From NCBI GenBank assembly GCA_016788115.1, contig JAEURR010000005.1:248001-312000 (forward strand): a DNA stretch of 64,000 nucleotides, in the 5' to 3' direction. This DNA is from Chthonomonas sp. (GTDB lineage: Bacteria; Armatimonadota; Fimbriimonadia; Fimbriimonadales; Fimbriimonadaceae). Made by a program: the position numbers and the translations under genes. The notes under the pieces were generated by a model. The model was not told the DNA's origin, did not search any database, and saw nothing but the letters and a program-made list of their open reading frames with translations. This document shows, piece by piece, positions 26,141-56,939 of the stretch (positions within the stretch are counted from its first letter, which is position 1; each line of letters begins with the position of its first letter).

Positions 26141-26810
26141 GGTCAAATGAGAACTGCTTTCCTCTGAGCAATCGCTGAGGTCCCCCTGCGATGATCACGG
26201 TCAGCATGCCAGCGAGGAACCCGCCCGCATGGGCCCAATTGGCTACGCCCTGCTGGGGGAAAATGATCTGCCACAGGAACCAAAGGCTAAGAAGGATCCA
26301 TGCGGCAACTTCGACGGGCCAAAACAGGAACGGAAAGACGATCAGTGTAATGCGGTTTGCGGGGAAAAGCAGGAAGTAGGCTCCAAGAACCCCGCCGATG
26401 GCCCCCGATGCGCCCAAAGTGGGGACGCCCGAGCTTGCCAGAACGAGTACGTGCGCGACCGAGGCAAACAAGCCCCAGAACAAGTACATCACGGTGTAGC
26501 GTGCTGGGCCCATGGCCGCCTCGACGTTCTCGCCAAAGGTCAGCAAGAAGATCAGGTTGCCGATCAGGTGGGTGAGGTTGCCGTGGAGGAACAGCGATGT
26601 GAACAGGGTCGTCATCGCCTTCCAGTCGCCGTGGCCCGTGACGGCGGCGACCACATCGCGCGGCTTCATGGTGAGATCCGAAAAGACGACGCTCGGTCCG
26701 AGCAGCGCACCATTCCGGTCCCACAAGTAAATGATCACGTTGAGCGCGATCAACGTGTACGTCACCACGGGTGTTTGGCGGGAGTGCGCGTTATCGCGGA
26801 CAGGGTACAT
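26133..26810 (-). CDS. Rhomboid-family intramembrane serine protease
   Basis: The 225-aa polytopic protein has the rhomboid catalytic dyad: Ser135 in LGASGAIGG and His194 in WAHAGGF, plus the HGNLTHLIGNLIFL helix that supplies the oxyanion His/Asn. About six or seven membrane helices are visible. Rhomboids cut single-TM substrates within the membrane. Its stop overlaps the DUF5693 start, placing proteolysis in the same translational unit as CsaB. A MarR regulator gene lies 33 nt upstream. Confidence 0.95.
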   Translation of the reverse strand: MYPVRDNAHSRQTPVVTYTLIALNVIIYLWDRNGALLGPSVVFSDLTMKPRDVVAAVTGHGDWKAMTTLFTSLFLHGNLTHLIGNLIFLLTFGENVEAAMGPARYTVMYLFWGLFASVAHVLVLASSGVPTLGASGAIGGVLGAYFLLFPANRITLIVFPFLFWPVEVAAWILLSLWFLWQIIFPQQGVANWAHAGGFLAGMLTVIIAGGPQRLLRGKQFSFDHD

Positions 26811-51538: not shown

Positions 51539-53755
51539 ATGACCGCCCCCTTTGATGTCGATACGTTGAATCCTCAGCAGAGGGAGGCCGTGGAGCACAG
51601 CAGTGGCCCGCTGATGATCTTCGCGGGAGCGGGCTCGGGAAAAACTCGCGTCATCACTTGCCGCATCGCACGGCTCATCCACGAGGGCATTCCGCCCAAC
51701 CGTATCCTGAGCGTGACCTTCACCAACAAGGCGGCCCGCGAGATGCGCGAGCGGATCGACGGCATGCTCGGCGAAGGGATGGCCCGGCAGATGTGGCTCG
51801 GGACTTTCCACTCCACCTGCGCGAAACTGCTGCGGATCGAATGCGCGCACATTGACCTCGACCCAAACTTCGTCATCTACGACGACGGCGATCAGCTCAG
51901 CCTCGTCCGCGAGATTCTCAAGCAGAAAAACCTCGATGAGAAATCGATCCAGCCGCGCGCAATCCTCAGCGAGATCAGCCGCGCCAAAGAAAAACTCCAG
52001 ACGCCCGAGATGTACGAGCGCGAGGCGACCGGATTCTTTGAGCGGATCGTTGCTTCGATCTACCCAACCTACAATTCGCTGCTCAAGAAGTCAAACGCCC
52101 TCGACTTTGACGATATCCTCATGCTCGCCGTCAAGCTGCTGGAACAGCGACCCTCCGTGCTAGAGAAGTACCAAGAACGGTTTTTGCACGTGCTGATCGA
52201 CGAGTATCAAGACGTGAACTTCAGTCAGTACCGACTGGCCTCGCTCCTCGCCGCCCGGCACCGAAACATCACGATCGTCGGAGACGATGATCAGTCGATC
52301 TATGCCTGGCGCGGAGCAGATGTTTCGCTCATGATGCGCTTCAGCAGCGACAACCCGGACGCCAAGGTCATCATGCTGGTCCAGAATTACCGCAGCACGA
52401 AGAAGATCCTCGATGCGGCGTACTCTGTGATCAAGCACAACCGGGGCCGCGCCGAAAAGCGCCTCTGGACGGATAACAGCGACGGTGTTGACATCGCCCT
52501 GCGCGAGGCGGGCACGGAGCAGGACGAGGCGATGATGGTCGCCGACATGATCCTGAAGGACGTGCGTACCGGTCGCCGGAAGTTCTCGGACTTCGCGGTT
52601 CTTTACCGGACGAACGCACAGTCCCGTGTCATGGAAGAGGCGTTCCTCACCATGCGGGTGCCGCACATCCTCGTGGGGGGTCAGCGATTCTATGAACGCA
52701 AGGAAATCAAGGACGCACTCGCCTATCTTCGACTGATCTTAAACCCCAACGATCAGATCTCGATGCTTCGCGTGATCAATACCCCCACTCGCGGACTCGG
52801 ACCGAAGACGCTGGAGCCACTGCTCGATTGGGCCAATGAACGGGGGCTCTCTCTGGTGGATGCCTTGCGTGACCAAGAGAATCAGCACCACATGCGCCCC
52901 GCCGTGCTCAAATCGGTCAAGACTTTCTTGGGCATGATCGAAGATGGACGGACGCTCATGGAGCAGGGGCCCATCACCCCGATTCTCAAGCACCTCTTAG
53001 CCGCGAGCGGGATGCAGGACGAACTCAAAGCGCAGCGGAATGACGAGAGCATTGCGCGGTTGGAGAACCTGCAAGAGCTCGTCAACGTCACGACGCAATA
53101 TGACTTTTCGAACGACGAGCCCTCGCTCAGCGCGTTCTTGGAGAGCGTGGCCCTGATTGCGGACGTCGACAGTTTGCAGGAAGGCGGCGAGGCGGTGACG
53201 CTGATGACGCTGCACAGTTCCAAGGGGTTGGAGTATCCAGGAGTGTTCCTGGTCGGGATGGAAGAAGGGGTCTTCCCGCACTCGCGTTCGCTGAATAATG
53301 ACAAAGAGCTCGAAGAGGAACGGCGACTGGCGTACGTCGGCATGACCCGCGCGCGCGAAGAACTAACCCTGATGCACGCGCGTCGACGCTCCATGTACGG
53401 TCAACCGAACTTCAACCGTCGTTCGCGGTTTATCGACGATATCCCGGAAACGTTGCTCGACTCGGTGACGAGCACAGGCTTTGGCGGCAGCGCGCCGACC
53501 CAGGCCGCCGTCCGGAGTGACCGCTCGGGCCAGTACTCGGTGACGACACCCGCTGAGCGCGAACTTAAGAAGCCAGATTGGACTCCGCCCTTCCAAGTGG
53601 GACAGAAGGTGCGCCACGCCAAGTTTGGCATCGGGGTCGTGATCGCCTGCAGCCCACTCAAGACCGACGCCGAAGTGACCGTCGCATTCCCGGGAGTCGT
53701 CGGAGTCAAGAAGCTGGTACAGAGTTTCGCCAAGCTTGAGGCGGTGAGTGAATAA
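51539..53755 (+). CDS. pcrA: UvrD/PcrA-type superfamily 1 DNA helicase
   Basis: The 738-aa helicase has all SF1A motifs: Q motif LNPQQREAVEH, Walker A GAGSGKTRVI, VTFTNKAAREMRERI, LIDEYQDVNFSQY (motif II), VGDDDQSIYAWRGAD (III), QNYRSTKKIL (IV), LMTLHSSKGLEYPGVFLVGM (V) and RRLAYVGMTRAREELTL (VI). A C-terminal Tudor-like segment (GQKVRHAKFGIGVVI) is typical of PcrA/UvrD and binds RNA polymerase. Functions in repair and replication-conflict resolution. The start is ATG 51539, with GTG 51533 as alternative. Confidence 0.97.
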   Translation: MTAPFDVDTLNPQQREAVEHSSGPLMIFAGAGSGKTRVITCRIARLIHEGIPPNRILSVTFTNKAAREMRERIDGMLGEGMARQMWLGTFHSTCAKLLRIECAHIDLDPNFVIYDDGDQLSLVREILKQKNLDEKSIQPRAILSEISRAKEKLQTPEMYEREATGFFERIVASIYPTYNSLLKKSNALDFDDILMLAVKLLEQRPSVLEKYQERFLHVLIDEYQDVNFSQYRLASLLAARHRNITIVGDDDQSIYAWRGADVSLMMRFSSDNPDAKVIMLVQNYRSTKKILDAAYSVIKHNRGRAEKRLWTDNSDGVDIALREAGTEQDEAMMVADMILKDVRTGRRKFSDFAVLYRTNAQSRVMEEAFLTMRVPHILVGGQRFYERKEIKDALAYLRLILNPNDQISMLRVINTPTRGLGPKTLEPLLDWANERGLSLVDALRDQENQHHMRPAVLKSVKTFLGMIEDGRTLMEQGPITPILKHLLAASGMQDELKAQRNDESIARLENLQELVNVTTQYDFSNDEPSLSAFLESVALIADVDSLQEGGEAVTLMTLHSSKGLEYPGVFLVGMEEGVFPHSRSLNNDKELEEERRLAYVGMTRAREELTLMHARRRSMYGQPNFNRRSRFIDDIPETLLDSVTSTGFGGSAPTQAAVRSDRSGQYSVTTPAERELKKPDWTPPFQVGQKVRHAKFGIGVVIACSPLKTDAEVTVAFPGVVGVKKLVQSFAKLEAVSE

Positions 53756-54320
53756 GCGCATTGCCGGGGCCGCGTTGACCGCGATCGTCGTCGCCGGTTG
53801 TTCGCAGCCCAAGACGAGCTACCTACCGCTCGAGGTTGGATACGAGTGGAAATACACCGTGACCGCCGGGCTGCAGTCCTCAGTCGAGACCCTGAAGTGC
53901 GTTCAGAACGACTCGGTCGCTGGGACCTCGGGATTCCGCCTGCAGGGCCCCGCGGGACAAAGTCGTTACGCTTGGAAGGCGGGCGTGCTCGTTGCGGAAG
54001 AACTTGCCGGAACTCGCTACGCCCCCGAGTTGCCGATCTTTGCTCCGGGCCTGGCCAAAGGCAAGAATATGACCTGGAAGGGTCAGATCACAATTGCCCA
54101 TCGCACGTTTACCGCATCGGGAGTGCTGATGACCGAGAGCGGCAAGATTTCGTTCGGCGGACGCGAGACCAACTCGCTCCGATCCGAGCTCACACTGACT
54201 CTAAAGGACCAGCCGTTCAAGATCGTGACGTGGTACGTCGATCGCGTCGGGATGGTTCGCCAAGAGGAGCGTGCCGGCGACCGCCTCATGCGTAGCGTCG
54301 AGTACATCAGCGGACCGTAG
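53748..54320 (+). CDS. Putative lipoprotein, unknown
   Basis: The 190-aa protein begins MNKRIAGAALTAIVVAGCSQ, a clear lipobox (VAGC, Cys18). A globular beta-rich domain follows (YLPLEVGYEWKYTVTA, YAWKAGVLVAEELAGTRY, FKIVTWYVDRVGMVRQE). Its phrase LEVGYEWKYTV recalls small lipoproteins with a duplicated WxY-strand pattern, but no family is named with confidence. GTG 53748 overlaps the pcrA stop. It precedes the ECF sigma factor, but a promoter-like GATACT at 54348 suggests a separate start for that pair. Confidence 0.75.
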   Translation: MNKRIAGAALTAIVVAGCSQPKTSYLPLEVGYEWKYTVTAGLQSSVETLKCVQNDSVAGTSGFRLQGPAGQSRYAWKAGVLVAEELAGTRYAPELPIFAPGLAKGKNMTWKGQITIAHRTFTASGVLMTESGKISFGGRETNSLRSELTLTLKDQPFKIVTWYVDRVGMVRQEERAGDRLMRSVEYISGP

Positions 54321-54347
54321 GAACTCTGGCGGTCGTGTGCGCATTCT

Positions 54348-54353
54348 GATACT
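54348..54353 (+). promoter_or_regulatory. Candidate promoter of the sigma/anti-sigma pair
   Basis: An extended -10-like TGATACT (GATACT at 54348-54353) lies after the lipoprotein stop and 88 bases before ATG 54442. No -35 is evident; autoregulation by the ECF sigma would use a different consensus. Confidence 0.3.
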
Positions 54354-54441
54354 CGAAGGTGCCCGTGGGTGCCGGAGCAAAAACAAACAACTTCGGATGG
54401 ACATCATCGGTACCACTCAAGCGGGATCGGGAGCCGGCTTC

Positions 54442-55014
54442 ATGTTGAGCCTGGCGCCTTTCGTTGCGCTTTTGATGGGTATCGGATTCCTGGGTGGCCG
54501 CGGTCGCCAACCCGACTTTGAACGCAGCTTCGAACCCATACTGTCGAGTCTGTACCGCGTCGCGCGAAGACTGACGCGCACCGCCGAAGAGGCGGAGGAC
54601 TTGGTGGGTCAGACGCTGTACAAGGCGTTCCGGGCATGGGACTCCTTCGATGGCGAGCACCTGAGTGGGTGGGCGATGCGAATCCTGCGGAACGAATTCG
54701 CGATGACACTGCGTGCGGCATCAAGCCGCCCAGAACTGGTGCTATCCGAAGACGAAATTGACGAAGAGGCAAAGACGAACGTGTGGAACGAAGTGAGTTG
54801 GCGTGCGGATGCCGCGAGAGTTTTGCAAGAACTCGATGCGCTCCCAGAAGAGTATCGGCTCGCGATCCAGTGCTGTGACGTCGAGGAGATGTCTTACGAG
54901 GAAGCAGCCGTCGCGATGAGCTGCCCCGTGGGGACGGTTCGCTCCCGAGTCTCTCGGGGCCGAGAGATGCTGCGCCGAAGGCTTGCGCCCGCTGCGGTGG
55001 GAGGGCAGCTGTGA
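54442..55014 (+). CDS. ECF sigma factor with an apparent N-terminal membrane segment
   Basis: The predicted 190-aa protein has ECF region 2 (FEPILSSLYRVARRLTRTAE, EAEDLVGQTLYKAFRAWDSF, WAMRILRNEF) and region 4 (LPEEYRLAIQCCDVEEMSYE, EAAVAMSCPVGTVRSRVSRG). Immediately before region 2 is a hydrophobic stretch LSLAPFVALLMGIGFLGG long enough to span a membrane. ATG 54442 has GGAG eight bases upstream; ATG 54397 would keep the hydrophobic stretch, and ATG 54475 would remove most of it but has no ribosome site. The gene overlaps the anti-sigma gene (GTGA). Confidence 0.85.
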   Translation: MLSLAPFVALLMGIGFLGGRGRQPDFERSFEPILSSLYRVARRLTRTAEEAEDLVGQTLYKAFRAWDSFDGEHLSGWAMRILRNEFAMTLRAASSRPELVLSEDEIDEEAKTNVWNEVSWRADAARVLQELDALPEEYRLAIQCCDVEEMSYEEAAVAMSCPVGTVRSRVSRGREMLRRRLAPAAVGGQL

Positions 55015-55733
55015 GCAACATCGATTGGCAAGCCTATCTCGACGGCAGCCTCAGCCAAGAGGAACGTGCGGCGGCAGAAGTGCAGCTCGAGACCGACCCC
55101 GCAGCGCGTGCCGAGTTGGACGGCCTCCGAGCGTTCATCGCGCTGGTTCGTAAGGCTGGCCGGTCGCAGCATGTACCCATTGATCGCCTTCGAGCAAGAT
55201 TGAGCGCAGTCGCGCGTCCGAGTCGCGTCCACTGGATTCAACGGAGTGCGGTTGCAGTCGTGGCCGCAGCCGTGTTGGTTTTTGCATTTTTCTACGCACG
55301 AGTCGATCCCGACAGGCTGAATCAGACGGCAATGCAGGCATCGTTCTCCACCGCGAATCCGCTGGCGGCCGCAGAGTGGCTTCGAAAACACGGGCAGAAG
55401 ATGGCACCCGTCATCGATCTCGGCACAACCGCCGTCGTGCAAACAACCAGCTACGGACAAGACTGGGGGTGCTACGAGTTCCTAGTCGATGGAGTGCCGT
55501 ACCGGATCTACATGACCACCAAGGAAGCTTCGTTTACACAACGCCCGCAGAAGGTCTTGCCGTGCGGGACGTTGACTTACTCCGCGCGGGGGACGGGCTT
55601 TTGCGCCCAGGGCTGCAACTTCTATGTGGTGGGCCCGGATCAAGCAACTCGGGAACATCTGGCCTCGGTGGCCACGCGGTACATGCACGAGCACTGCAAA
55701 GACAACCAGAACAAGACAGAGCAGAGTCTTTGA
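55011..55733 (+). CDS. Putative anti-sigma factor with Cys-rich extracytoplasmic domain
   Basis: The 240-aa protein has a short cytoplasmic N-terminus (1-77, with WQAYLDGSLSQEERAAAE, the usual helix of anti-sigma domains but without the HxxxCxxC zinc motif). One TM helix (about 79-96) and an outer domain with Cys154, Cys185, Cys198, Cys202 and Cys229 follow (GFCAQGCNFYVVG). GTG 55011 overlaps the sigma stop, the standard arrangement for a cognate pair. The Cys-rich outer domain suggests redox or metal sensing, which is inferred. Confidence 0.8.
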   Translation: MSNIDWQAYLDGSLSQEERAAAEVQLETDPAARAELDGLRAFIALVRKAGRSQHVPIDRLRARLSAVARPSRVHWIQRSAVAVVAAAVLVFAFFYARVDPDRLNQTAMQASFSTANPLAAAEWLRKHGQKMAPVIDLGTTAVVQTTSYGQDWGCYEFLVDGVPYRIYMTTKEASFTQRPQKVLPCGTLTYSARGTGFCAQGCNFYVVGPDQATREHLASVATRYMHEHCKDNQNKTEQSL

Positions 55734-55775: not shown

Positions 55776-56939
55776 ATGCCTCGATATCACCGACTCGGAC
55801 AGCTTCCGCCCCAGCGGCACACACAGTTTCGCAAACCTGACGGCGGCCTCTACGCAGAGCAGCTGATCAGCACCCACGGGTTCTCGGGCCCGATGGCGCT
55901 CACGTACCACATCAACTTGCCGACTGAGGTTGCGGGGTGGGAGGACGCCGGGAGCTGCGAAGTTAAGTTCCTGAAAGACGAAGCGCTGCGGCATCGCCAC
56001 CTCATCACCGGCAACATGCCTGCTCATGGCGATATGATCACGGGTCGCGTACCCTTGATGGGCAACAACGACGTCATCTGGAATCAACTCAACGTCGCAG
56101 AACCGATGGAGACTTTCTTCAAGAACGCCGAAGCGGACGAGATCACGTTCATCCACGATGGATCCGGGGTCCTGGAGACGATGCTCGGCGACGTCCCGTT
56201 TCAGCCCGGTGACTACCTTATCATCCCGCGAGGCACGATCTGGAAGATTCGGTTTGATTCGTACCCCGTACGCGTGCTGACCTTTGAGAGCCACGGCGAA
56301 GTCACGATTCCCAAGCGATACCGAAACGACTACGGCCAACTCCAAGAGCACGCTCCCTTCCACGAGCGCGATATCCGCCCTCCGGTCGAACTGAAAACGT
56401 ACGACGAGAAAGGCGAATTCTGGGTGACGGTCAAAGCTCGGAAGCGGTACACGCGCTACCTGTACAATTTCCACCCCTTCGATATCGTGGGGTGGGACGG
56501 CTTCGTCTTCCCATACGCGTTCAGCATTCACGCGTTTGGCCCCATCGTCGGCAAGCTCCATATGCCGCCGCCGATCCACCAGAACTTCCAGGGGCACAAC
56601 TTTGTGGTGTGCAGCTTCTGCCCGCGTGTGCTGGACTTCCACCCCGAGGCGATCGTGATCCCGTACAACCACTCGAACGTTGACAGCGATGAGGTCTTGT
56701 ACTATTGCAACGACAAGTTCGGTTCACGCAAGGGGATCCAGGAGGGATCGATCACGATCCATCCGCTCGGGATCCCGCACGGACCGCAGCCCGGCGCGGT
56801 CGAAGCCTCGATCGGAGCGACGAAGACCGAAGAGCTCGCCGTTATGCTCGATACTTACTACCCGCTCTATCTCACTGAGGAAGCACTCAAGATTGAGGAC
56901 GCTGACTACTGGAAGAGCTGGCAACCCCGAGGCCGCTAA
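55776..56939 (+). CDS. hmgA: Homogentisate 1,2-dioxygenase
   Basis: HmgA opens the ring of homogentisate to maleylacetoacetate in tyrosine/phenylalanine degradation. The 387-aa protein has the family phrases MPPPIHQNFQGHNFVVCSF and VIPYNHSNVDSDEVLYYC (Fe ligands His and Glu) and HPLGIPHGPQPGAVEASIG (third ligand His). No hppD, maleylacetoacetate isomerase or fumarylacetoacetase gene is nearby. Its leader has a hairpin over the ribosome site. An AraC regulator follows on the same strand. Confidence 0.95.
   Translation: MPRYHRLGQLPPQRHTQFRKPDGGLYAEQLISTHGFSGPMALTYHINLPTEVAGWEDAGSCEVKFLKDEALRHRHLITGNMPAHGDMITGRVPLMGNNDVIWNQLNVAEPMETFFKNAEADEITFIHDGSGVLETMLGDVPFQPGDYLIIPRGTIWKIRFDSYPVRVLTFESHGEVTIPKRYRNDYGQLQEHAPFHERDIRPPVELKTYDEKGEFWVTVKARKRYTRYLYNFHPFDIVGWDGFVFPYAFSIHAFGPIVGKLHMPPPIHQNFQGHNFVVCSFCPRVLDFHPEAIVIPYNHSNVDSDEVLYYCNDKFGSRKGIQEGSITIHPLGIPHGPQPGAVEASIGATKTEELAVMLDTYYPLYLTEEALKIEDADYWKSWQPRGR

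Follow-up and report, generated by a model that had tools for sequence, protein, structure and literature searches.

The window analysed here, a 64,000-nucleotide stretch of Chthonomonas sp. DNA, carries on its plus strand a gene for an ECF sigma factor overlapped by a gene for a membrane-bound anti-sigma factor. The open frame of the sigma gene extends from 54271 to 55014, with in-frame ATGs at 54397, 54442 and 54475. Its longest form by codon usage (54397..55014, 205 aa) matches Pfam Sigma70_r2 (51 bits) and r4_2 (52.3 bits), both above cut-off and listed without a region 1 or 3 model, as well as the NCBIfam sigma70-ECF superfamily (79.7 bits), and the nearest solved chains are ECF sigmas of the SigH/SigE type. 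With regions 2 and 4 and no other sigma domains, the protein has the domain composition of an ECF (group 4) sigma factor. The anti-sigma gene (55011..55733, plus strand, 240 aa), assigned from homology and its structural model, opens with a GTG and shares 4 nt (GTGA) with the end of the sigma gene, and both frames lie where the first-pass annotation had placed them. Upstream, a lipoprotein gene (53748-54320) overlaps the end of pcrA; its best Pfam match is DUF3108_like, below cut-off, and no Pfam family exceeds its cut-off. Homologues of this lipoprotein occur in 81/85 family genomes. Its suggested link to the sigma/anti-sigma pair is contradicted by gene order elsewhere: in the 26 other genomes where an anti-sigma locus (from L046-L074) and a match to the lipoprotein both occur (G065, G080 and G088 lack the latter), it lies on another contig or hundreds of kb from the anti-sigma gene. 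A divergent homogentisate-dioxygenase-like cupin gene (55776-56939), above Pfam cut-offs and far below the NCBIfam hmgA cut-off, begins 42 nt after the anti-sigma gene.

The anti-sigma factor appears to combine a helical N-terminal domain, a single membrane-spanning segment and an outer domain. In the structural model (mean pLDDT 78) the N-terminal helices cover residues 6-11, 16-28, 30-52 and 57-68, and VIA-align superposes the protein on RslA (3hug_D) with Z 5.0 and rmsd 4.9 over 58 residues. The predicted transmembrane helix (about residues 79-95; 55245..55295, plus strand) is read from the sequence and appears in the model as a low-confidence helix at 79-96. It is followed by a putative alpha/beta sensor domain with five cysteines (55326..55730, plus strand), most blocks of which are modelled at pLDDT 84-95. 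Matches to NCBIfam anti-sigma models all fall below cut-off (antisigma, 34 bits against a cut-off of 100), and searching PDB sequences with a profile of the anti-sigma returns nothing under E 0.08. For the outer domain we find no Pfam family over cut-off and no Foldseek match at E 0.001; the best VIA-align score is Z 7.3, and the C-terminal part of RseB reaches Z 7.2, a middling value not used for membership. The single transmembrane segment, the confinement of all five cysteines to the last 140 residues and the lack of an Hx3Cx2C motif agree with the earlier description. This zinc motif, which about half of the class I anti-sigma domains carry and which the class does not demand, is found in 0/30 aligned anti-sigma rows, that of the window included. 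The cysteine-richness pointed out there does not carry over to the family, since the outer cysteines are mostly unconserved across the 30 rows: Cys 154, 185, 198, 202 and 229 of the window protein are found in 18, 4, 2, 1 and 1 of them. Cysteine-based sensing is accordingly rejected as a family feature, only Cys154 being common.

Homologues of the anti-sigma factor are present in 51/85 family genomes, and the sigma gene lies directly upstream in 28 of 30 loci, the remaining two (L055, L068) having it beyond the contig end; the proposed pairing of a sigma factor with a membrane anti-sigma is thus right and recurs across the family. The same-genus genomes G001 and G002 give no match to the anti-sigma, while named matches include Armatimonadetes bacterium 55-13 and Fimbriimonadaceae bacterium TGS_ARM4. 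A contig search of named genomes with the anti-sigma sequence alone returns no match, and the same search with the anti-sigma alignment returns eight loci, which share with the window no flanking gene in common place except the pair itself. In three named genomes (L097, L098, L100), the anti-sigma gene is immediately followed by a conserved gene coding for about 450 aa (67-78% identity).

A paralogous sigma gene (L031/L185; G000:C5:315207-315686) is located about 3.2 kb past the window end. It belongs to a sister clade (among L167-L190) that recurs in many family genomes and that resembles the window pair in having a sigma factor about 48% identical and a small adjacent anti-sigma. The sister-clade anti-sigma differs from that of the window in being a soluble protein of about 90 aa with an Hx3Cx2C motif and no transmembrane run.

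Upstream of the sigma gene lies a predicted ECF-type autoregulatory promoter, GGAAC-N17-CATT (54320..54345, plus strand), which starts on the final base of the lipoprotein gene's stop codon. The motif GGAAC-N17-CRTT (R being A or G), at this one spacing, precedes 18 of the 28 paired sigma genes that are left once 8 duplicates are dropped, against a mean of 0.14 and a maximum of 2 in shuffled sequences and 2 on the reverse strand. A relaxed pattern, chosen after seeing the data, is found at 31 of 36 paired sigma genes (L053 dropped as a duplicate). L055 and L068, with no sigma gene in reach, were left out of these counts and of the start-distance and hydrophobicity comparisons below. Promoters of SigH/SigE-type ECF sigmas typically combine GGAAC with a CGTT-like -10 element, and transcription begins about 7 nt past that element. 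A transcript start near 54352 is therefore predicted, with ATG 54397, the first in-frame start, about 45 nt after it and 51 nt after the -10 element. Conservation of the motif suggests that the sigma factor probably transcribes its own operon. Of the 31 sigma genes with the promoter, 14 have an ATG or GTG in frame 5-14 nt past the -10 element, against 6 and 2 in the control frames. This pattern suggests leaderless translation of sigma factors extended at the N-terminus by about 22-48 residues, at loci among L047-L069 and L148-L159. The motif does not reveal the regulon, because its 39 sites in the genome barely exceed the 31 of the reversed control. The search for sigma-70-like promoters found 1 against 0.9 expected, and a structured leader was likewise rejected (folding z -0.56; no Rfam match).

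The sigma factor was initially singled out for an 18-residue hydrophobic run directly before region 2, and this run is indeed present: FMLSLAPFVALLMGIGFL (54439..54492, plus strand), residues 15-32, KD18 2.24. On hydrophobicity alone it is unremarkable and not beyond chance: of the 927 stop-free 38-codon stretches that open with ATG in the window, 1.6% reach KD18 2.06, and among all 62163 stop-free window stretches 0.49% reach 2.24, set against 58 called genes. AlphaFold2 gives pLDDT mostly below 50 over the run, with no confident helix. In this genome the run may contact or span the membrane and might anchor the sigma factor, with the N-terminus out because basic residues come after it.

Comparison with homologues offers no support for a membrane-bound sigma factor as a shared mechanism. 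Among 36 distinct paired sigma genes, with KD18 taken from any upstream start, only that of the window reaches 1.6, the next values being 1.46, 1.22 and 1.21; the segment is thus absent from all 35 paired homologues, the very result that the first-pass annotation had named as refuting its proposal. With residues 1-92 as query against 113 order-level genomes, the matches listed, that of the window aside, start at residue 10 at the earliest, most of them at 26-49. Among the matches starting at residues 10-21 that were read (G100, G091, G092, G050, G072, G056, G005, G007 and G068; G059, starting at 20, was left out), a comparable run occurs in G050 only. The sigma factor concerned, L151, is the sole other homologue with a strong run (KD18 2.66) among 79 distinct sequences, a set in which duplicates are folded, own paralogues and other ECFs are included and L044 is dropped for its low score; L157, which may contain an indel, lacks an in-frame start. 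At this locus (L151/L166/L167, G050:C18) a sister-clade sigma factor with a strongly hydrophobic N-terminus is followed by a soluble anti-sigma with the zinc motif. Relatives 85% and 79% identical to L151 are without the run, so hydrophobic runs can come and go in these 5' regions. The run of the window is probably a lineage-specific extension rather than a family mechanism.

Whether this segment enters the protein depends on the start codon. Codons 54397-54474, which form an N-terminal extension absent from homologues, score 0.375 per codon, with a coding mean of 0.277 and an intergenic mean of -0.219 (1.4% reach 0.375). Synonymous choice alone, a measure that hydrophobicity cannot inflate, gives 0.153, with 0.139 for coding and -0.184 for intergenic frames (2.1% reach 0.153; both percentages are rough, as the null comprises 3118 frames that overlap one another and come from 17 stretches at most). 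The preceding 75 bases (54322-54396) are not coding-like. The gene caller selects starts by codon score, and its pick of 54397 is therefore not independent. The best ribosome site had been taken to place the run within the protein; a GGAG does precede ATG 54442 (54442..54444, plus strand) at spacing 8, a start whose product keeps most of the run, and ATGs 54397 and 54475 have no such site. However, only 15 of the 58 called window genes have a Shine-Dalgarno 4-mer, so that the missing site at 54397 says little. The coding-like codons, together with the promoter placing ATG 54397 shortly after the predicted transcript start, incline us towards translation of the run in this organism; codon usage lends the idea moderate support without proving it.

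The foremost alternative, which we rate a real possibility yet do not favor, is that translation begins at ATG 54475 (54475..54477, plus strand), leaving the run outside a protein that would be soluble and making approximately 54352-54474 a 5' leader. The extension may be untranslated because this ATG matches the short-start position of homologues (M, hydrophobic, basic, DFE), where short starts recur 5-12 residues before DFE and are the sole start in L054, L070 and L073; in the comparison of L067 with L070, coding-like conservation is found only from the short ATG onward. In L047, L048, L050 and L061 the only start lies 18-23 residues upstream, and between L047 and L048 and between L059 and L065 the changes in the extension are of coding type or keep the frame. 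A start at 54475 has against it the change in codon character at 54397 and its distance of 129 nt from the -10 element. Of the other promoter-bearing homologues, 26 have an in-frame ATG or GTG, and the first of these codons lies 0-54 nt past that element in 25 of them and at 116 nt in L066.

That the autoregulatory transcript in this lineage yields a sigma factor with its own N-out anchor, such that both partners are tethered and activation would require cutting the sigma too, or that the anchor marks a long isoform limiting the response beside a short transcribing one from 54475, seems unlikely to us. For a true anchor (N-out, C-in, with the basic side cytoplasmic), whose release would require cleavage of both partners, one can cite the codons from 54397, the ribosome site at 54442, the KD18 value and the encoded proteases; the lack of a run in any paired homologue, its loss among the close relatives of L151, the near-chance hydrophobicity and the lack of a confident model helix make this no more probable. 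Also unlikely are two isoforms after the manner of Streptomyces SigR/SigR', a long one from the autoregulatory transcript, possibly membrane-bound or unstable, and a short soluble one from 54475, which would suit the predicted promoter upstream of the long start, the SigR' precedent (as described in PMC5472188) and the homologues that start 5-14 nt past the -10 element, several of which also have a short internal start, but only one promoter motif is found, alongside several in-frame starts.

The best explanation, and in our judgment the likely one, is a canonical autoregulated ECF sigma factor with a membrane-bound, class-I-like anti-sigma. The non-zinc helical N-terminal domain of the anti-sigma would keep the sigma factor at the inner face of the membrane while the outer domain would read an envelope signal. 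Upon this signal the anti-sigma would be lost, probably by proteolysis; the genome encodes M50 and rhomboid proteases, including the rhomboid gene correctly noted earlier in the window (26187-26615, minus strand; G000:C5:274187-274615). The freed sigma factor would then transcribe its own operon from GGAAC-N17-CRTT. Under this explanation the sigma factor here probably starts at ATG 54397 with a lineage-specific 38-residue extension, without which the rest of the family would operate. A common stress-signaling pair in the family thus appears self-activating, and the hydrophobic start is probably peculiar to this genome and not a mechanism that the family shares. The analysis yields a map of promoter and start sites, open to testing, for this widespread sigma/anti-sigma pair of Armatimonadota. 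Were the hydrophobic start to act as an anchor, both partners of this ECF system would be tethered; as matters stand, it cautions that choice of start site can create apparent membrane segments.

Literature searches on this Armatimonadota pair found no paper, and none came up that uses the verbatim term "membrane-anchored sigma factor" alongside ECF; a review, in the part available, describes N-terminal ECF extensions as lacking mechanistic data (PMC8103513). ECF36 members, as described in PMC8999054, share a membrane segment N-terminal to the ECF sigma, but they have three to four transmembrane helices, DUF2275 and a fused anti-sigma, whereas the window has one short run and a separate anti-sigma; the window sigma shows no DUF2275 match and one hydrophobic run at most. 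In the account of PMC5472188, SigR' offers the closest parallel to an autoregulatory transcript encoding an added N-terminal extension, and the window resembles it in a predicted autoregulatory promoter upstream of the extension-adding start. The SigR' extension, 58 residues long, turns the protein into a Clp target, with no membrane role told in the available part of that account; SigR/SigR' has two promoters where the window has one promoter motif, and its anti-sigma, RsrA, is zinc-containing and cytoplasmic where that of the window is non-zinc and membrane-bound. From the canonical class I systems (RseA, RskA, RsiW), as presented in PMC7406223, the window pair differs in the possible hydrophobic N-terminus of its sigma factor and in an outer domain without a Pfam match over cut-off. 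It shares with them adjacent genes, a predicted N-terminal helical domain, one transmembrane segment, an outer domain and a putative self-activation motif, and non-zinc anti-sigma domains such as its own are common, making up about 44% of ASDIs according to the same source.
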